A stretch of 64,000 bases of DNA from the NCBI RefSeq assembly GCF_009653635.1, contig NZ_PPFD01000002.1:124001-188000 (forward strand). Direction: 5' to 3'. How positions within the stretch are numbered: the first letter of the stretch is position 1; each line of letters starts with the position of its first letter. Of the stretch, positions 2,087-51,051 are shown piece after piece. This DNA is from Endozoicomonas sp. OPT23 (GTDB lineage: Bacteria; Pseudomonadota; Gammaproteobacteria; Pseudomonadales; Endozoicomonadaceae). The notes under the pieces were generated by a model. That model made no database searches, had not been told where the DNA came from, and worked only from the letters and a program-made list of their open reading frames with translations. Both the position numbers and the translations under genes were made by a program.

Positions 2087-2180
2087 GATGAGTATGTAGA
2101 TAGACGAATCGAACATTAAGTTGCTGTTTGCCCGCCGCAGGCGGGCAAACAGCTTATACATTCGAATGTCCGAGTACTTA
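2087..2180 (+). repeat. Palindromic intergenic repeat, copy A
   Basis: First of eight ~95-bp related elements. The left end matches the family (a GTATGTAGA..ATCGAACATT version), the right end is ATTCGAATGTCCGAGTACTTA. The core is a perfect 14-bp hairpin, 2123-2136 pairing with 2140-2153 around loop GCA; inner arm CCCGCC/GGCGGG, outer arm GCTGTTTG/CAAACAGC. It lies in a divergent promoter region between the DUF2147 and CHMI-type genes. Confidence 0.85.
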
Positions 2181-3543: not shown

Positions 3544-3637
3544 CGATAAGTGTGTAGACGCACGTAATCGAATATTAAATGGCTATATCCCCGCCGATGG
3601 CGGGGATATAGCTTAGAATTCATATGTTCGGGTACTT
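3544..3637 (+). repeat. Palindromic intergenic repeat, copy B
   Basis: The left end AAGTGTGTAGACGCACGTAA and ATCGAATATTAAAT are near consensus. Perfect 14-bp hairpin, 3582-3595 with 3599-3612 around loop GAT; inner CCCCGCC, outer GCTATAT/ATATAGC, so the outer arm differs from copy A and still pairs fully. Right end AATTCATATGTTCGGGTACTT. It sits upstream of hisA and just past the GH125 stop. Confidence 0.85.
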
Positions 3638-3649
3638 GGTGCATCAACA

Positions 3650-14844: not shown

Positions 14845-15576
14845 TTACTTAAGACGCTTGGCAATCATCTCTTTCAGCGCAGGCATCTGGGTGTAACCCT
14901 TCAGAACCTGATCAGAGAAAACCAGTGCTGGTGTACCTCTGATGCCTAGCTCCTGAGCCAGCTGTATGTTTTCCTGAATCTTCTTCTGAACCTTGTCGTC
15001 AATCTTCAGGTTGTCCACGTCGACACCTTCAGCCTTCAGTGCTGCTTTGATAGAGCTGCTGGAATGACGGCCAGGCTTGGAGATCAGGCGATTATTAACC
15101 GCGATGTATTTTTTCTTGTCCTGCTGGAAAACAGCCATGGCATAGTTGGCAGCTTCCAGAGACTCAGGGCCCAGAATAGGCAGCTCTTTAATCACAACCT
15201 TAACATCCGGGTTTTCTTTAACCAGTTGTTGCAGTACAGGGTCCTGACGCTTGCAGTAGCCGCAGTTATAGTCAGAGAACAAGGTGATGGTCAGTTTGGC
15301 GTCAGGGTTGCCAATAAATGGCGAGTCTGGATCGTTAAACAGCAGAGCGTTACGGTCTTCCAGAGTCTTGGACTCGGCATGCTGTTGAGCCATGGCTTCA
15401 CGCTTGCGGTATTCGGTCATGGCTTCGATCAGAATTTCAGGATTCTTGATCAGGGTTTCACGAACCAGATCTTTAACCTGTTGTTGCTGTTGGTCATCCA
15501 GAGTTGCAGCGCTCAGGCTGCTTGAGGCCAGCAACATGGAACCGGCAAGAAAGAGTGCTTTTTTCATATCTCTCAT
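14845..15576 (-). CDS. scsC: DsbA-family thiol oxidoreductase, ScsC-like
   Basis: 243 residues. Signal peptide MKKALFLAGSMLLASSSLSA (starting at the second Met; the choice between ATG at 15576 and 15567 is open, since GAGAG sits close to the second). Residues ~25-75 are helical with a Gln run, resembling the trimerisation region of ScsC/DsbG-like proteins. The thioredoxin fold carries CGYC (Cys ~105 and ~108) in FSDYNCGYCKRQDP and a cis-Pro in GIRGTPAL (~215). Located directly after scsB on the same strand, so it is presumably kept reduced by ScsB in the periplasm and acts as disulfide isomerase/reductase, in Salmonella linked to copper tolerance. scsA and scsD are absent. The repeat C hairpin lies in the gap to scsB. 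Confidence 0.85.
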   Translation of the reverse strand: MRDMKKALFLAGSMLLASSSLSAATLDDQQQQQVKDLVRETLIKNPEILIEAMTEYRKREAMAQQHAESKTLEDRNALLFNDPDSPFIGNPDAKLTITLFSDYNCGYCKRQDPVLQQLVKENPDVKVVIKELPILGPESLEAANYAMAVFQQDKKKYIAVNNRLISKPGRHSSSSIKAALKAEGVDVDNLKIDDKVQKKIQENIQLAQELGIRGTPALVFSDQVLKGYTQMPALKEMIAKRLK

Positions 15577-15600
15577 CTATGAGTTGTTAGTATTTTGCCC

Positions 15601-15690
15601 ACTGTGTGTTTGGACACCTGCAATCGAATGTTCATACTATTTGTGTACCCGCCGAAGGCGGGTACACAAATATTGAGATTCTTTTGTCAG
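15601..15690 (+). repeat. Palindromic intergenic repeat, copy C
   Basis: Perfect 16-bp hairpin, 15638-15653 with 15657-15672, loop GAA; inner ACCCGCC/GGCGGGT, outer TATTTGTGT/ACACAAATA, another outer-arm variant. The left end GTGTTTGGACACCTGCAATC and GAATGTTC is diverged from consensus and the right end is poorly kept. It lies between scsB and scsC inside a probable operon. Confidence 0.75.
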
Positions 15691-15702
15691 TGTTTGCCAC
15701 AC

Positions 15703-17817: not shown

Positions 17818-18277
17818 GAAACTCCAAAGATACTGCCTGGGTGTAAATAAGTACCCAGCGTACGAATCAGCAATTTAATATTCGATTACGTGTGTCCACA
17901 CGCTTAACGTCGGGTATAAACAACATACGTTAAGTATCCAGTTTTGGATGCAAAAACAATGATTATTTCAGTTCGTAGACAAATCTGGTGATGCAGATCT
18001 TCCGGGGAGTGGTTTGTACTTATATTAAGTCATTCGACTTTCGTTATTTCTTTCAACAGAAACCCTGATCAACCCTCTGGATTTCCTGTGGATAACTTCT
18101 GAACAGTTGATGTCTACTGAGCTTAACGTTCTGATCAAAAAATGATCAATCATTGGTTTGTTAAATGACCAATAACTTCTACCATCCGTAGTATTACGGA
18201 AAGAAGAAGTCACTGACATCGTTTGTCAGACTTTCACTTTTTATGACGTGATTTTTTACATGAAAGTATCTGATTCA
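17818..18277. other. Gene-free region between ydfG and scsB
   Basis: Holds repeat copy D (17846-17910), several GATC sites, one exact DnaA-box-like TGTGGATAA (18087-18095) and a hairpin ATTGGT..ACCAAT near 18150. No protein gene is supported. It presumably contains the scsB promoter. Confidence 0.5.
17846..17910 (-). repeat. Palindromic repeat, copy D, lacking the central hairpin
   Basis: Read on the minus strand, the left end (AAGCGTGTGGACACACGTAA, then TCGAATATTAAATTG) is near consensus and the right end (ATTCGTACGCTGGGTACTTA) follows directly. The GC-rich hairpin found in other copies is missing, making this a deletion derivative of about 65 bp. Confidence 0.75.
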
Positions 18278-19184: not shown

Positions 19185-19279
19185 AATAAGTACTCGGACA
19201 TTTGAATTCGTATGCATTTCCCCGCCTACGGCGGGGAAATGACAATCTAATATTCGATCACGTGTGTCTGCACACTTAC
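19185..19279 (-). repeat. Palindromic intergenic repeat, copy E
   Basis: Inverted relative to copy A. On the plus strand it begins AATAAGTACTCGGACATTTG and ends TATTCGATCACGTGTGTCTG plus CACACTTAC. Perfect 12-bp hairpin, 19215-19226 with 19230-19241, loop TAC; inner CCCCGCC, outer CATTT/AAATG. It lies between the symporter gene end and the ydfG start. Confidence 0.85.
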
Positions 19280-39618: not shown

Positions 39619-40506
39619 TCAGCCTTTGACGCCGCCTGCCGTCAGCCCACCGACAATCCAGCGCTGACAGAACAGGAATATGACTGATATAGGCAGCCCG
39701 GAAAGTACGGCAGCTGCTGCAAAGTCACCCCAGAGATAATTCTGTGGATTAAGATACTGACGAGAACCTACTGCCAGAGTCAGGTTATCCATGCTTTGCA
39801 GCAGTACTGATGCAACCGGGTATTCTGCAACCGTGGCGATAAAGGCAAGAATAAATACCACGGCCAGAATGGGCACGGACAGAGGCAGAAGAACATATCT
39901 GAATGCTTGCCAGGGTGTTGCGCCATCAATCGCGGCAGCTTCCTCAAGTGAATTATCGATGGTTTCAAAGTAACCCTTAATCAACCAGATATGCAGTGCC
40001 AGACCACCAAGGTAGGCGACAGTGACAGCTCCAAGGTGATCAAGCCCGAGCCACGGGACGTAATCACCCAGTTTGTCGAACAGCGAATAGATAGCTACCA
40101 GCGCCAGTACTGCCGGAAACATCTGCAGAATCATCATGGCGGTCAACATATGTTCCTTAAACCTGAATTTAAGTCGGGCAAAGGCATAAGCTCCGGTTGT
40201 GGAAAGCAGCAGAATAATTGTCGTAGAAATAAAGGCCACTTTAATGGAGTTCCAGAGCCAGAGCAGTACCGGAAAAGGTGGGTCGGTAATGGTGCCGTCT
40301 GAATTTTCCCAGGGTAGGCCAAAAGCAAGGTACCAGTGCTCAAGACTGGGTGTGTCAGGTATAAGGCTGCCGGTTGCAAAATTACCTGAACGGAATGACA
40401 CCGAGATGATCATCAGGAAAGGAAACATGATCAGGCATAGAAACAGGATCATAAAGATTCTGGCAACCCAGACACGAGAGGCCAGATTTCTTGGTTGAAC
40501 CATCAT
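39619..40506 (-). CDS. malG: Maltose ABC transporter permease MalG
   Basis: 295 residues from the ATG at 40506 (GAGGAG nine bases upstream); E. coli MalG has 296 and begins likewise with (A)MVQP. A TTG at 40527 would overlap malF but is less likely. Six transmembrane helices. The [11 protein letters not shown] and [16 protein letters not shown] stretches and the EAA loop [26 protein letters not shown] (contacting MalK) are nearly identical to E. coli, and the C-terminus ends [10 protein letters not shown]. Forms the inner-membrane channel with MalF. The start is 13 bp after the malF stop. Confidence 0.96.
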
Positions 40507-40519
40507 TGTCGTTTGCTCC

Positions 40520-42076
40520 TCACTCAACCATGCGCTTGGTCACCCGAAGGTTGACCCAGGCTATAGTGCCGACGATAAGGAAAATAAAGGTGGCAATGGC
40601 AGAAGCCAGTCCGTAGTCCTGGCCATATTGTCCGAACGCCATGCGGAATGTATAGCTGACCAGAATATCGGTAGCGCCAGCAGGAACGGTTGCTCCGATG
40701 ATATTAGGACCACCTCCGGTCAGGAGAGCGATCAGTACAAGGTTGTTAAAGTTAAAGGCGAAGCTGGCAATCAGCAGAGGTATCAATGGTTTGATAATCA
40801 GCGGCACCGTTATTCTGGTTAAATTTTGCCAGGGCGTTGCACCATCAATAGCAGAGGCTTCATAAAGATCACCTGGAATAGCCTTCAGCAAACCAATGCA
40901 CAAGATCATCATATAGGGGTAGCCGAGCCAGGTATTGACAATAACGACCATGGTTTTGGCGAGGAACTCATTGCTGAACCATTCGGGCTCTATACCAAAC
41001 AGCAGGTTTAGCAGCATATTGATCTCGCCAAAATTCTGGTTAAACAGGCCACGGAAAATCAAAATAGAAATAAAGGCAGGAACTGCATAAGGCAGTATCA
41101 AAAGCAGGCGATAGACACCATTACCCTTTAATGGCTCCCACTGCACCAGACAGGCCATCAGCAGGCCAATGATCAGAGTGAAGATGACTGACAGTAATGA
41201 AAAGAGAGTGGTCCAGATAAAAATCTGTAGAAACGGCCCCTGAATACCTGGATCGGTGATTACCCGGGTGAAATTATCCCAGCCACTGTAAACCACAAAA
41301 CCGGGGCCTACGCTTTCCGCCTCACTCAGTTCGCCTTCAAAATAGGCGGGCACTTCTTTGAAGTAGCCAACACTGAAGTCAGGAATCAACCTGTTACCAT
41401 TGCGAACATCCTGAAGAATATTACCGCCAATATCCCGGTATATATCCACCATAGGGCCAAACTTTCGAAGGCTTATCATGGACAACTGAAGCCCACTTGG
41501 AAGTTTTACATCCTGAGTTTTCAGAAGCTGCCTGAGCTTTATCGTTTCTCTAAAAGCCAGTTCCTTACCATCAGGAATGGTATTTTGCAGTTTTGCCGAG
41601 ATAAGAGCAGGTTCGGATTCTTCAGTAAAAGGCTGTGATACCAGAAACTCTGTTTCGCTGGGGATAAAAACAACTCTATATTGGTTGTCTGATTGAAAAA
41701 CCTTGAATGGGTAAGACTCACCTTCGATGCGATAAGTCTTGCTCAGCAGTATCTCCTTGACCCGCTCCAGTGGCAGCAGGTTATTAGAGCTGTAATTGGT
41801 AAAAGCGACATTGACTGTGTAAATCAGAGGGAAAACGATAAAAGTAGAGACGCCAAGGATAGCGGGGTAAACATAACGATAGTTATAACCTTTGGCACTG
41901 ATAAAAACCCATGTACCTGAGCAGACAACGAGTACGATAACCAGGGCAAAAGCGGTTTCGCCCTGTGCATACATTAATGTGACACCATAGAGTAGTATCA
42001 GGTCGATGGCAGCAATAGCTCCCCATGCAAGCCATTTCAAAGGGGAGCTGGCTGGTTGTTCTGTAGCTGCCGCCAT
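40520..42076 (-). CDS. malF: Maltose ABC transporter permease MalF
   Basis: 518 residues (E. coli 514). Three N-terminal hydrophobic segments (to ~95) are followed by the large periplasmic P2 loop (~95-275), which in MalF contacts MalE, then the core helices. The EAA loop is [22 protein letters not shown]. The closing stretch [38 protein letters not shown] is typical. A GGAGG lies eight bases before the ATG. malE is 200 bp upstream, with repeat copy F in the gap. Confidence 0.95.
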
Positions 42077-42123: not shown

Positions 42124-42213
42124 GTTAAGTGTGTTGACCGATCGAATATTAAATTGCGTTTTCCCGGCGCAGGCGGGCAAAAAGCTTCTGAATTCGTATG
42201 CCTGAGTACTTTA
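42124..42213 (+). repeat. Palindromic intergenic repeat, copy F, inside the mal operon
   Basis: The left end GTTAAGTGTGTTGACCGATC and GAATATTAAATTG, and the right end TGAATTCGTATGCCTGAGTA, fit the family. The central hairpin is decayed: GCGTTTTCCCGGC against GGCGGGCAAAAAGC around GCA, with mismatches and one missing base. It lies between malE and malF. Confidence 0.8.
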
Positions 42214-42276: not shown

Positions 42277-43503
42277 CTAATTAACGATCTGCTTAGCCGC
42301 CTCATTCAGTGCCTGTCGATAATTCTGGCGACCTGAAGTAATGTTCCGCAGTGCTGCACTCATAGCGGCCCAGAATTTACCCATTTCCGGAACATTAGGC
42401 ATGATCAGACCATTGATGGCATTTTCATAGGTAGCGAGAATACGAGGGTCGGATTTCAGCTCTTTCATGTAACTCTTATTGGCTACAGCGCCCAGAGGTA
42501 CGTCGCTGTTCATGGTTCTGAGTCCATCATCGGTCAGCAGATAATTCTCCAGAAATTCTTTGGCCAGAGCCTTATTGGGGCTGGCATTGTTTAATGTGGC
42601 TCCCCAGACACCGACGAAAGCTCTGGCCCTCTTGCCATTGAGACTGGGTAGTTGAGCGACACCGTAGTTAAGTTTTTTACCTTTAATTCGACTCTTCTCA
42701 AGGTTGGCCCAAGCCCAGGGACCGGTGATCATCATTGCAGTTTCACCCTTGTTGAAACTGGATTCCATTACGCCGTAATCCACGCCTCTGGGCAGCACAT
42801 CTTTTTCTATCAGCCGGGTCAGCATTTTTGCTCCGGCCATGGCACCAGCGTTGTTGACGCCTGTTTTGTTCACGTCATAACCCGTAGAGGTTTGTTTGAA
42901 CACATAGCCACCATTAGCAGCAAGCAGAGGCATGGTGAAGTAGGGCTGAATCTGATCCCACATAATAGTTGTGACAGAGCCGCCTTTGCGTTTTGCCAGT
43001 TTGTCCTTCAGTGGGAACATTTCTTCAAAAGAAGCGGGCGGTTCTGGAAGAATATCCTTGTTATAAATAAGGCTGATGGCTTCCAGTGAAATGGGGTAAC
43101 CGTAAATTTTGCCGTTGTACGTCATGGCTTGCCAGCCAATATTGTCGATTTTTTTCTTGAATGAGTTAGCAGGTCTGACTGGAGCCAGCAGGCCACTTTT
43201 GGCCCACTCTCCGTAACGGTCATGAGCCCAGAAGAGAATATCCGGGCCGCTGCCAGAAGCGGCTGATTGCTGAAAGCGATCGGTTATTTTCTCCGGAATT
43301 TCAACTTTGACCTTGATACCGGTATCTTCCTCGAAGAGCTTTCCGACTTCTCTGATACCGTTATAGGCTTTGTCTCCACCGACCCAGAGAACCAGTTCAT
43401 CGTCTTTGAATGCCTTAGCCTGAGAGGACGTGAGTAGCGTACTGAATACAAAAACGACTGTAACAATGGTATTGGTTAAACTGGCCGATAGTAGCTTGAT
43501 CAT
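42277..43503 (-). CDS. malE: Maltose/maltodextrin-binding periplasmic protein
   Basis: 408 residues from the ATG at 43503 (GAGGAG ~10 bases upstream; a TTG at 43524 is also open). A signal peptide (MIKLLSASLTNTIVTVVFVF..) ends near SSQAKA. The mature sequence follows the MBP pattern: ELVLWVGGDKAYNGIREVGKLFEEDTGIKVKVEIPEKITDRFQQSAASGSGPDILFWAHDRYGEWAKSGLLAPV, YGYPISLEAISLIYNKDI, and GETAMMITGPWAWANL, with ligand-stacking aromatic positions kept. It delivers maltodextrins to MalFGK. First gene of the leftward operon; its promoter lies in 43504-43962. Confidence 0.95.
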   Translation of the reverse strand: MIKLLSASLTNTIVTVVFVFSTLLTSSQAKAFKDDELVLWVGGDKAYNGIREVGKLFEEDTGIKVKVEIPEKITDRFQQSAASGSGPDILFWAHDRYGEWAKSGLLAPVRPANSFKKKIDNIGWQAMTYNGKIYGYPISLEAISLIYNKDILPEPPASFEEMFPLKDKLAKRKGGSVTTIMWDQIQPYFTMPLLAANGGYVFKQTSTGYDVNKTGVNNAGAMAGAKMLTRLIEKDVLPRGVDYGVMESSFNKGETAMMITGPWAWANLEKSRIKGKKLNYGVAQLPSLNGKRARAFVGVWGATLNNASPNKALAKEFLENYLLTDDGLRTMNSDVPLGAVANKSYMKELKSDPRILATYENAINGLIMPNVPEMGKFWAAMSAALRNITSGRQNYRQALNEAAKQIVN

Positions 43504-46685: not shown

Positions 46686-47141
46686 ATGGCTGTGAATAAA
46701 ACACTTTCCGTTACTTCCAGAATGACAGACTCCTGTCGCATTGAAGCTCAGCTTGGCAATCATCTGGCTGTGATTGACCAGCCAAAAGTGGCTGGTGGTA
46801 ATGATGAAGGCCCAACACCTCTTGAATTTTTCCTGTTCTCGTTGGGTGGTTGTGTGGCTAGCATTGCCCGTATAGTTGCTAAACAGCAGAAGATTACCCT
46901 TAGAAGTATTGATGTAACGGTTGAAGCGGCACTGAATACAGCAGTACTGGCTGGGAAGACGACAGACGATCGAGCAGGTTTTCAAAGCTTCCATGTCAGC
47001 GCAAGTATGGATGCGGATCTGACAACTGAAGAGAAAAAACAGTTTCTTGATACCGTGTGCGCCCGTTGTCCAGTACACGACAATATTACTAAAACATCAG
47101 TTGTTGAGCATGTTCTGGCCGAGCAAGTTGAACCGGCATAA
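46686..47141 (+). CDS. OsmC family protein
   Basis: 151 residues. OsmC/Ohr fold with both redox Cys: FFLFSLGGCVASIARIVAKQQKI (first Cys ~56) and VCARCPVHDNITK (second Cys ~122). The CPVHDN context is of the YhfA/OsmC-like group rather than Ohr. Members reduce hydroperoxides or act on small thiols; some are of unknown role. Cytoplasmic, with no signal peptide. The upstream hairpin covers its presumed ribosome site. Repeat G lies between it and the convergent mak gene. Confidence 0.88.
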   Translation: MAVNKTLSVTSRMTDSCRIEAQLGNHLAVIDQPKVAGGNDEGPTPLEFFLFSLGGCVASIARIVAKQQKITLRSIDVTVEAALNTAVLAGKTTDDRAGFQSFHVSASMDADLTTEEKKQFLDTVCARCPVHDNITKTSVVEHVLAEQVEPA

Positions 47142-47166
47142 CCGCTTTTCTTCAGCAACATATCTT

Positions 47167-47261
47167 GTTAAGTGTGCAGATACACGTAATCGAATATTGG
47201 ATTGTCATTTCCCCGCCGTAGGCGGGGAAATGACATACGAATTCAAATGTCCGAGTACTTA
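47167..47261 (+). repeat. Palindromic intergenic repeat, copy G (best-preserved)
   Basis: Left end TTAAGTGTGCAGATACACGT and ATCGAATATTGGAT; right end GAATTCAAATGTCCGAGTAC then TTAA, so the termini TTAAGT/ACTTAA are inverted. Perfect 15-bp hairpin, 47203-47217 with 47221-47235, loop GTA; inner CCCCGCC, outer TGTCATTT/AAATGACA. Lies between two convergent genes and may also work as their terminator. Confidence 0.88.
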
Positions 47262-47302
47262 AAGGTACTGTTGCTGAAGTTTTTAGTCTTTTCAGACAGT
47301 TG

Positions 47303-48202: not shown

Positions 48203-48591
48203 TGGACTTATATCTCCAGCCATCGTTAAGTATCAGACTTATTTGCACATACGGTCATGCTACAGCACAGCAGAAGGAGAGCGAATAAGTCCTGCCGGAT
48301 TGGAAATCGCATTTATACTAGAACCCAGTATTGAGTCAGATAGTTTTTTTGTGGTCGTGCACAATAAAAGACATATGACTTGTAATGGTCTTGCACCTCA
48401 ACAGCTGTTTCATGGTGTATTAACGGGTGGCAAAGCGGTCAGCCAGCTGAATGCCAGAGAGTATTCAGACGCATGAATTTATCAGTTCTTTGCCTACCGC
48501 AGGCGGGCAAAAGGCAATTTAATATTCGATGACACATGTCTATACGCTTAACCATGCTGATACATGATTAATGTAAGAGAGTGGGATTCAC
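48203..48591. promoter_or_regulatory. Divergent region mak / glgP with repeat H
   Basis: About 390 bp holding the promoters of both genes and repeat copy H near glgP. No protein gene is supported. Confidence 0.5.
48458..48553 (-). repeat. Palindromic intergenic repeat, copy H
   Basis: Inverted copy. On the plus strand it starts AGAGTATTCAGACGCATGAA and ends AATTTAATATTCGATGACAC plus ATGTCTATACGCTTAAC. The hairpin is imperfect: CTTTGCCTACC against GGCGGGCAAAAG around GCA. Ends 39 bp before the glgP ATG, so it is probably within the glgP leader. Confidence 0.75.
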
Positions 48592-51051
48592 ATGACTGCA
48601 AACAAGGCAGGGCAGACAGTAAAGGCTGCCGTTAAAGCCAAAGATATCTCTGAAGGTATTCTTCGCCACCTGCAACAGTCTCTCGGTGTCGAGATGGAAG
48701 AGGCAGGCCCGGCAGAATTCTGGGAAGCGCTGAGCCTGGTTGTTCGGGAAATAGATCTTCAGCGCATTCGGGCGACCCGTAAGAAAGAACGGGAAAATAA
48801 AGCCCGTCGGGTTTACTACCTGTCTCTTGAGTTTCTTGTGGGCAGATTGCTCAGTAATAACCTTCATAATCTTGGGATCTTTAAAGAGGCTGAAAAAGCA
48901 CTGTCTGAGATGGGCGTATCCCTGACCGATGTTCTTGAGCACGAAGCTGACCCTTCTTTAGGTAATGGTGGACTGGGGCGATTGGCTGCCTGCTTTATGG
49001 ATTCTCTTGCAACCCTTGATACACCAGCCATAGGTTATGGTATCAACTATCGCTTCGGCCTTTTCCGTCAGAGTTTTGCAGGTGGTCGTCAAGTAGAAAC
49101 GCCCGATGGCTGGCGGGAAGACAGCTTTCCCTGGGGGATTGAACGGCCCAAGCGTAAGCAACTGATAAAACTGTATGGAAGAGTGGCCGAGCATGCAGGG
49201 AAAGCGGTTTGGGAAGATACCCGGTCAGTGTTGGGCATGCCCTGGGATGTGCCGGTTACGGGTTATAACACTGAAACCGTTAACACCCTCAGGCTTTGGG
49301 AAAGCCGGGCAACAGAAGGTTTTGATTTGAACAGTTTTGATGCGGGTCGCTATCAGGATTCCCGCTCTCAGGAAATAACCGCCGAAAATATCAGTCAGGT
49401 TCTCTATCCCAATGACAATCATCCGGCTGGTAAAGAGTTGCGACTGATCCAGCAGTATTTCTTTGTCGCTTGCTCCATGGCAGATCTCATTGACCGCTAT
49501 AAACGAGAGAATGGTGATGGCTGGGATCACTTTGCAGATAAGGTCGTCATGCAATTGAACGACACTCACCCTGCTATTGCGGTCGCTGAATTAATTCGCA
49601 TTCTGCTGGATGAAGAAGACTTCAAGTTCCCCGATGCTTTGGTGTTGTGTCGTAAAGTCTTTGCTTATACCAATCATACCCTTCTGCCCGAAGCTCTGGA
49701 GAAATGGCCTCAGAGACTGATTGCCCGAGTTCTGCCAAGACACATGCAGATCATTCACATGATCAACTATCACTTCCTGCATTCTGAAGTAGATGCTGTA
49801 TGGCCGGGTGATGACAGCATGAAACGCAGACTCTCCATTATTGAAGAGCCGGACCGCCCAGGAGACGATCAGATGGTTCGCATGGCCTATCTGTCGGTGA
49901 TTGGCAGTAACAAGGTTAATGGAGTAGCAGCGATTCACTCAAAGCTTGTTCAGGATATGCTGTTCCCTGAATTCCACCGAATCTGGCCGGACAAGATTGT
50001 TAATGTCACCAACGGTGTTACCCCTCGTCGCTGGCTGGACCACTGCAATCCGGAGCTGGCAGAGCTGATTGATAACAGCATTGAGGGTGACTGGCGCGGT
50101 GAGCTGGATTTACTGTCAGACCTGAAACCTTTTGCCAATGATGAGGCTTTCCAGAGGAAGTTTGCTGAAATCAAACTGAACAATAAGCGTAAACTGGCGG
50201 CTATTATCAAGGAACTCTGCAATATTGAAGTTAACCCTGAAGCCATTTTTGATGTTCAGATTAAACGACTTCATGAGTACAAACGTCAGCAACTGAATCT
50301 TCTGCATATTATGGCGCTGTACCGTAGGCTGCTTGAAAACCCGAATCTGGACGTGCCACCAAGAGTCTTTATCTTTGGTGCCAAGGCAGCACCAGGTTAC
50401 CTGGTTGCCAAGAGCATCATTCATGCGATTAACAGGCTGGCTGATCGAATCAACAACGACCGACGGATAAAGGACAAGATCAAGGTCGTCTTTATTCCGA
50501 ACTACAGAGTGAGCCTGGCAGAACGAATCATTCCTGCTGCTGATGTGTCAGAACAGATCTCTACAGCCGGTTTTGAAGCATCAGGCACTGGTAATATGAA
50601 AATGGCTCTGAACGGTGCCCTGACCGTGGGTACTATGGACGGAGCTAATGTCGAGATTGCTGAAGAGGTCGGTGATGACAATATCTTTATCTTCGGCATG
50701 ACCGTTGATGGGGTTTCCGAGCTTCGCAGTCGGGGCTACAACGCCTGGGATGTGTACCATGCCTCTGATGAACTGAAAAGTGTTATCGACTGGCTGGGTT
50801 CTGGTGATCTGAGCCCGGAAGAACCGGATGCTTTTAAACCGATTGTCGAGTCTTTGCTGGATAGAGGCGATTACTTCCTGACACTGGCGGATTACCAGGC
50901 CTACAGTGATGCCCATGACCGAATCGTTCAGACCTGGAAGAATCCTCGGGAGTGGTGGCGCAAGGCTATCATCAATACGGCTTCCATGGGTAAGTTCTCT
51001 TCAGACCGCTCCATTGCAGACTACAATCGTACGATCTGGAATATGAAGTAA
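48592..51051 (+). CDS. glgP: Glycogen/maltodextrin phosphorylase
   Basis: 819 residues (E. coli GlgP 815, MalP 797), GT35. RRVYYLSLEFLVGRLLSNNL and DPSLGNGGLGRLAACFMDSLATL are at the N-terminal half; NDTHPAIAVAELIRILLDEE, NVTNGVTPRRWL and IKRLHEYKRQQLNLLHI follow; the PLP Lys is in SGTGNMKMALNGALTVGTMDGANVEI. It cleaves alpha-1,4-glucan ends with phosphate to glucose-1-phosphate. It is followed by pgm, which takes the product on; context with mal genes makes either name (malP or glgP) possible. Cytoplasmic. A terminator after the stop separates it from pgm. Confidence 0.95.
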   Translation: MTANKAGQTVKAAVKAKDISEGILRHLQQSLGVEMEEAGPAEFWEALSLVVREIDLQRIRATRKKERENKARRVYYLSLEFLVGRLLSNNLHNLGIFKEAEKALSEMGVSLTDVLEHEADPSLGNGGLGRLAACFMDSLATLDTPAIGYGINYRFGLFRQSFAGGRQVETPDGWREDSFPWGIERPKRKQLIKLYGRVAEHAGKAVWEDTRSVLGMPWDVPVTGYNTETVNTLRLWESRATEGFDLNSFDAGRYQDSRSQEITAENISQVLYPNDNHPAGKELRLIQQYFFVACSMADLIDRYKRENGDGWDHFADKVVMQLNDTHPAIAVAELIRILLDEEDFKFPDALVLCRKVFAYTNHTLLPEALEKWPQRLIARVLPRHMQIIHMINYHFLHSEVDAVWPGDDSMKRRLSIIEEPDRPGDDQMVRMAYLSVIGSNKVNGVAAIHSKLVQDMLFPEFHRIWPDKIVNVTNGVTPRRWLDHCNPELAELIDNSIEGDWRGELDLLSDLKPFANDEAFQRKFAEIKLNNKRKLAAIIKELCNIEVNPEAIFDVQIKRLHEYKRQQLNLLHIMALYRRLLENPNLDVPPRVFIFGAKAAPGYLVAKSIIHAINRLADRINNDRRIKDKIKVVFIPNYRVSLAERIIPAADVSEQISTAGFEASGTGNMKMALNGALTVGTMDGANVEIAEEVGDDNIFIFGMTVDGVSELRSRGYNAWDVYHASDELKSVIDWLGSGDLSPEEPDAFKPIVESLLDRGDYFLTLADYQAYSDAHDRIVQTWKNPREWWRKAIINTASMGKFSSDRSIADYNRTIWNMK

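Follow-up and report, generated by a model that had tools for sequence, protein, structure and literature searches.

A palindromic repeat dispersed in the genome of Endozoicomonas sp. OPT23, most probably an IS630/Tc1-mariner-type MITE, has an unusual shape-conserved centre

The repeat unit of pneumococcus (RUP) of Streptococcus pneumoniae is described as an element of ~107 bp, present in roughly 110 copies and targeting TA, whose terminal repeats resemble those of IS630-Spn1, an IS630 element, whose movement is proposed to occur in trans and which is over-represented between convergent genes (PMC2229807, PMC3049150). ERIC/IRU and Correia/NEMIS are likewise presented as small MITE-like repeats with 5′-TA-3′ termini (PMC2229807), and a preference for TA is given as characteristic of IS630/Tc1-mariner elements (PMC6400869, PMC5481204, PMC2229807). 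Here we describe a repeat of Endozoicomonas for which RUP is the nearest known kind, as judged by description. It differs from RUP in that a sister species is the only place where an autonomous element was detected, and in that its GC-rich centre is variable in sequence and conserved by pairing; compared by description too, ERIC/IRU and Correia/NEMIS share its TA termini but belong to other hosts.

Endozoicomonas sp. OPT23 is a marine-sponge isolate reported with 30 scaffolds, 4.9 Mbp, a G+C content of 46.84% and few transposase genes (PMC6955870). The assembly analysed here (G000) comprises 30 contigs with 4,936,507 bases in total; its 64-kb stretch G000:C12:124001-188000 is the window. As a reference we used the closest congener of OPT23 by DNA (G001), treated as a sister species, which is collinear with it across the window and most of a 448-kb stretch of C12. 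Among named organisms, the closest relatives recovered with one window protein are Endozoicomonas species and strain Hp36. All eight copies announced for the window by the original prediction are real, with refined coordinates: there are six full-length copies, a decayed one and one that lacks the hairpin. The copies of this putative MITE are as follows (window coordinates).

2089..2180, plus strand: full-length copy; ends partly decayed (22%); 14-bp perfect hairpin; RNA fold z -7.19
3547..3638, plus strand: full-length copy; stem variant CTATATCCCCGCC
15604..15698, plus strand: decayed copy; ends ~33% diverged; 16-bp perfect hairpin; profile score 30 bits; fold z -6.48
17848..17906, minus strand: copy with internal deletion, 59 bp; both ends retained, hairpin deleted
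19187..19278, minus strand: copy of the young subfamily; fold z -5.95
42126..42212, plus strand: copy whose left end has a short deletion and whose hairpin is broken; fold z +1.41
47169..47261, plus strand: copy reading TA-AGTGTGCAGATACACGTAATCGAATATT, 15-bp perfect hairpin with 3-nt loop, GAATTCAAATGTCCGAGTACT-TA; fold z -6.21
47203..47235, plus strand: central hairpin of the copy 47169..47261, TGTCATTTCCCCGCC GTA GGCGGGGAAATGACA; across the family, its structure is conserved by covariation
48458..48550, minus strand: older copy; hairpin partly decayed; fold z -0.64

The six full-length copies have profile E-values of 2.7e-29 to 1.7e-15, five of the six having been in the profile seed. A profile-free grouping also recovered direct repeats at 2107, 3566, 42139 and 47188, and linked 17869, 19188 and 19215, as inverted repeats, to other copies. 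All eight lie between the main ORFs and the two ORFs that overlap them, one of 94 aa at 15392-15676 and one of 70 aa across 3547-3638, look spurious, which agrees with the intergenic location and the lack of coding capacity that had been proposed. Elsewhere in the window, the segments at about 40035-41293, 42329-43388 and 48642-51040 have paralogues, 70-76% identical, at about 678-694 kb of G000:C12.

The family extends far beyond the window. We aligned 54 copies (40 of OPT23 and 14 of G001; six of the 60 extracted copies were omitted for gaps or truncation), whose consensus is TAAGTGTGTAGACACACGTAATCGAATATTAGATTG-TCATTTCCCCGCCGNAGGCGGGGAAATGA-CATATGAATTCATATGTCCGGGTACTTA, and derived a covariance model from them. 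In OPT23 it matched every one of the 150 candidates scored, which gives at least 150 matches; it also matched at 47 places in G001 and nowhere in eight other congeners. Using a single copy as query, the whole OPT23 genome returned at least 40 places at E <= 1e-15 and 23 short hairpin re-matches, 40 of the 133 candidates having been scored, while a sequence-only profile detected 31 copies in the 448 kb of G000:C12, decayed and partial ones included, that is ~340 copies genome-wide by extrapolation. Counted with a single flanking base at either end, 62 of the 66 near-full copies measure 94-96 bp, and three near-identical young copies of OPT23 are identical across their aligned columns, gaps being ignored. 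The repeat is thus not confined to this region, nor is it one duplication: its ends are common to the copies and the flanks are not. In G001 the spread is uneven, at least seven of the 47 matches being on the 206-kb contig C134 and a single weak copy on the 412-kb contig C79.

The distribution of the family is narrow. OPT23 was the sole match among the 293 genomes of an order-wide sample searched with stricter filters, and family-wide 4 of 37 genomes matched, namely OPT23, G001 and two sister-genus genomes, each of which has a single weak match. The element was not found in phages, plasmids and viral contigs, its exact pattern had no match in a genome-contig collection excluding its own genome, and a repeat search (R1) had none in 14 congener stretches around one window gene. 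No Rfam family reached its gathering score in the window, and searches of an open-access library turned up no account of an Endozoicomonas MITE, which fits the earlier view that no named family is known to have this consensus.

The element is laid out as TA-AGTGTGYAGACA...hairpin...TGTCYGGGTACT-TA over ~92 bp. Its imperfect terminal inverted repeats are AGTGTGYAGACA and AGTACYCGGACA; the two consensus ends agree at 16 of 27 positions, and the outermost TAAGT/ACTTA are complementary in 94% of cells. The termini had been read as beginning with TTAAGT, but the base before TA is T in just 36% of 66 copies and the element proper starts with TAAGT. TA stands at both ends of 49 of 66 near-full copies and of 23 of 27 high-scoring ones, and no strong target preference beyond TA was seen in the 66 near-full copies.

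Comparison with G001 indicates that the copies are insertions. No copy was detectable in G001 at any of the eight window sites, the syntenic places of 15604 and 47169 included, and at 48458..48550 the syntenic blocks are 95 bp apart in OPT23 versus 5 bp in G001. Moreover, 30 of the 31 copies in 448 kb are flanked by syntenic blocks, with no orthologous copy in G001. One empty site is exact: G000:C12:192372-192463 reads ...CTGGTTGTTG-TA-element-TA-GCTGTTTCG..., with flanks ...GTTG-TA and TA-GCTGTTT, and G001 reads ...CTGGTTGTCG-TA-GCTGTTTCG..., a single TA in otherwise continuous DNA; the own left terminus of this copy lacks one A. A second site (260211-260302) is consistent with a single-TA empty site, and most other spacers are too diverged between the two genomes for base-exact junctions. 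A TA target-site duplication is therefore seen at one exact and one consistent site, at which an element carrying its own TA would look alike. A candidate for an old insertion shared by both species (226251 in OPT23, 222480 in G001) was rejected: the only G001 copy in 412 kb has the opposite orientation to the nearby OPT23 copy, and these are thus two separate insertions.

In OPT23 itself, no match to DDE_3, the IS630-type transposase domain, was found, although nine congeners do have DDE_3, G001 included. A search with the right end of the repeat, allowing up to three mismatches, gave 79 matches (70 in OPT23 and 9 in G001) against none for a reversed-pattern control, and one of the G001 matches starts 48 bases past a DDE_3 match, in the correct orientation. 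It belongs to a full-length, TA-flanked IS630-family element of 1,147 bp, at G001:C156:92708-93854 (L284:2209-3355), with the ends TAAGTAGCCAGACAA and TAAGTACTCAGACAA. Two frames of this IS, a helix-turn-helix (HTH) frame (158 aa) and a DDE_3 frame (210 aa; 126 bits with the IS630 family of NCBIfam, whose cut-off is 100), meet at GGCAAAAAAATAGGG, an A7 run that looks like a programmed frameshift site. Its right end agrees with that of the repeat at 23 of 27 positions, and none of 21,138 TA-initial sites on one strand of 412 kb of G001 is as good; the left ends agree moderately, at 18 of 30, a value that three of the 21,138 background sites reach. Because the search had used the right end as its query, the independent evidence is its position by the DDE_3 gene together with the TA-flanked left end 1.1 kb upstream. 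One full-length copy of this IS was seen in G001, along with a 111-bp piece of its right end, 99% identical, at G001:C133:3369-3479.

Similar ends occur in more distant elements. Plasmid-borne relatives of the G001 transposase have at most ~40% identity to it (187 records, all below 60%), and no relative was found in viral contigs. Among the three relatives that we inspected, the IS of Rippkaea PCC 8801 (pP880101) has clear TAAGT....ACA ends, agreeing with each other at 22 of 26 positions; that of Halomonas HAL1 (pHAL1) has such ends tentatively, other placements tying on the first 16 bases, and in the Iodobacter element none were found. The repeat thus has the same type of TA-flanked ends as the G001 element and the Rippkaea and, tentatively, Halomonas ones, but while these IS630s are autonomous and of ~1.1 kb, it retains the ends only, the hairpin replacing the gene. 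Of the 100 DDE_3 matches that the nine congeners hold, we examined the ends at this partner, at one further G001 locus and at 12 other loci (11 in eight congeners and one in G001); at these 12 they are unlike those of the repeat. A search with the left end, again with up to three mismatches, gave 99 matches in OPT23 and 20 in G001; no coding element was present in 18 fetched stretches (13 from OPT23, 5 from G001), most of which were chosen for left ends that the R1 matches lack, or at C12:4407, and many of the stretches inspected are short deletion forms of the repeat.

Altogether, we regard these repeats as very probably a family of non-autonomous IS630/Tc1-mariner-type MITEs of ~92 bp, transposition in trans being deduced from sequence comparisons. 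Another TA-specific transposase, as yet unfound, could instead have moved such a MITE in an ERIC-like manner, the likeness to the G001 IS630 then reflecting cross-relatedness rather than a true helper. OPT23 indeed has no DDE_3 match, the left-end agreement of 18/30 is modest, and ERIC and Correia are also TA-ended and, as presented in PMC2229807, without a proven helper. Yet the 23/27 agreement falls at the precise end of the IS630, in the correct orientation and with a TA-flanked left end, and the Rippkaea (clearly) and Halomonas (tentatively) relatives have TAAGT....ACA ends too, so that this alternative seems to us rather unlikely.

The original prediction had spoken of a REP/MITE-type element mobilised in trans, as opposed to a classic ~30-bp REP. 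REP/REPIN elements mobilised by a RAYT (Y1) transposase are, like the present repeat, intergenic palindromes of high copy number, and the eight Y1 matches found in G001 would suit such a system. However, Y1 had no match in OPT23, the same search being positive in 5 of 14 control genomes. REPs carry the tag GTAG at the base of their hairpin, while in our 54-copy consensus no GTAG/CGTC-type tag is found there, GTAG being placed within the left end and GCAG replacing it in many copies. To our knowledge, TA ends and long terminal inverted repeats, both present here, are not REP features. Because of the TA ends, the single-TA empty site, the matching IS630 ends in G001 and the lack of a Y1 match in OPT23, we favour the MITE half of that earlier reading over the REP/TnpA-REP half, to which we give hardly any credence.

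For such a MITE, the following course of events can be proposed. The conserved ends would have been bound by a transposase of the IS630 subgroup represented in G001, which would have inserted the element at TA; the mobile unit itself may have arisen from such an IS by internal deletion and gain of a palindrome. Against this stands that OPT23 has near-identical young copies and no DDE_3 match, so that the helper must have been lost, missed in gaps or externally supplied. The family is probably orphaned in this genome, its autonomous partner being absent or hidden in assembly gaps. Copies may persist mostly between genes, where insertion would do least harm, and the hairpin may then be kept for a useful RNA or DNA shape, or kept perfect by arm-to-arm template-switch correction.

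A related repeat is found in the sister genus. It shares the ends of the window family (AATC...TATT, GTCTGGGTACTTA) and has a different hairpin, built around CAGCCCA...TGGGCTG in the genome G309. In 400 kb of G309, the sister-genus profile finds four copies and the window-family profile none. The copies are:

L283:1501-1595 and L282:119-213: sister-genus copies
G309:C22, 219796, 224509 (the L283 copy), 272815 and 281073: sister-genus copies

Given that an architecture of ends plus hairpin recurs in the sister genus, it seems to be older than the genus.

The centre of the Endozoicomonas element behaves differently from its ends. In the central hairpin, 71 cells carry double changes with pairing kept, where 300 row shuffles gave 19.6 on average and never more than 31, and a separate covariation test on 11 pairs with slid controls gave the same picture. 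In the left-end, right-end and outer-terminal inverted repeats, double changes are no more frequent than in shuffled rows; the five positions flanking the central stem have slightly more than expected, 33 (shuffled mean 12.7, maximum 29), with pairing of just 52%. The repeat is thus made of two modules, ends conserved as sequence and a hairpin of at least 13 bp conserved as structure.

Pairing also outlasts the ends. We measured 71 of 96 OPT23 elements, the other 25 having too little of their ends or stem in the alignment. In the 18 of these 71 that are old, with ends at least 20% diverged, 85% of stem positions are paired and six stems are perfect, a measure lowered by the visible misalignment of the stem in at least two of the 18. 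Neutral simulation from 31 young copies, with recovery by the same profile, gave ~68-74% pairing and 0-4% perfect stems in the same bins, and none of about 2,000 neutral samples matched on end divergence reaches the observed old-copy mean, in a test that takes no account of ancestors that may have had different ends at birth. In the window, the fold is lost in two of the six copies folded, those with a decayed hairpin (42126, 48458), the other four having z values of -5.95 to -7.19. These results suggest post-insertion selection or self-correction of the palindrome: the stem-loop may be useful and under purifying selection, or its arms may correct each other by template switching, two readings that our data fit equally.

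Hairpin-less deletion forms of 30-83 bp that keep both ends are also found (L183, L185, L187-L191, L193, L197, L288, L289 and window 17848-17906). Their breakpoints differ by eye, and therefore no hairpin-less form is seen to have multiplied. Conversely, a search for the hairpin outside the elements found none in the window and L001-L045, its two matches being known copies. A second palindromic insert, of ~160 bp and with ends GGAGCCTG.CGGACTTA, lies inside a repeat copy at L042:1337-1498 (G000:C26, about 529470-529631), with TAG apparently duplicated; it has no relative in 448 kb of OPT23 or 412 kb of G001, and a single instance of its end motif was seen in a locus of E. elysicola (L201:2788-2804).

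Such a strongly covarying hairpin, retained in old copies and mostly located between genes, could also be expected of an immobile regulatory or terminator element made by the host. A terminator scan nevertheless found only one of the eight window copies to be terminator-like (3547..3638, on the minus strand at 3582-3612), and the hairpin is not a classical intrinsic terminator, in which a T run follows a GC-rich hairpin. Furthermore, the copies have no consistent orientation to genes and represent insertions when compared with G001, where one empty site shows a single TA; a host-made origin is thus highly improbable.

Most copies lie in spacers. Using gene calls made by a simple longest-ORF rule, 29 of the 31 copies in 448 kb have their midpoint in the ~11% of sequence outside called ORFs, five of these overlapping an ORF edge by 3-20 bases, and the other two are inside ORFs of 70 and 134 codons that are possibly spurious. 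Among 52 high-scoring OPT23 loci, a set that overlaps with the former, the midpoint is within a called ORF in five (L004, L018, L030, L040, L043) and two could not be classified. Of the 45 remaining loci, 4 are between divergent genes, compared with 64 of the 237 spacers of at least 60 bp in 448 kb; in the all-age 448-kb set this is the case for 5 of 31 copies. An orientation bias relative to genes was considered and rejected, the counts in OPT23 tandem spacers being contradictory (20 same versus 9 opposite in one sample, 5 versus 13 in an overlapping one). Some copies lie between the arms of inverted repeats, for example CTTCAGCAACA..TGTTGCTGAAG (window 47140-47290; L009; L046), in a manner resembling insertion into a terminator loop. 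Insertion into terminator loops was itself not retained: flank inverted repeats (L001, L009, L046 and others) score at least 8 in 5 of 60 copies, compared with 2.1% of 3,540 mismatched flank pairs, a weak excess.

With the probable assignment to IS630 MITEs, an undescribed repeat found in many gene spacers of a probable sponge symbiont gains a mechanism and a candidate helper. The pair of sister species, of which just one has a detected helper, also offers a system for studying the fate of an orphaned MITE. The opposition between ends conserved as sequence and a centre conserved as shape makes the repeat a testable case for the use of MITE hairpins by their host, or for the self-repair of palindromes. 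It is possible, though we would only tentatively propose it, that the hairpin was domesticated after insertion, its pairing being kept by compensatory change while the transposase-binding ends decay following loss of the helper. If so, hundreds of dispersed, shape-conserved stem-loops in the gene spacers of OPT23 would be mRNA 3′-end, processing or DNA-topology sites.
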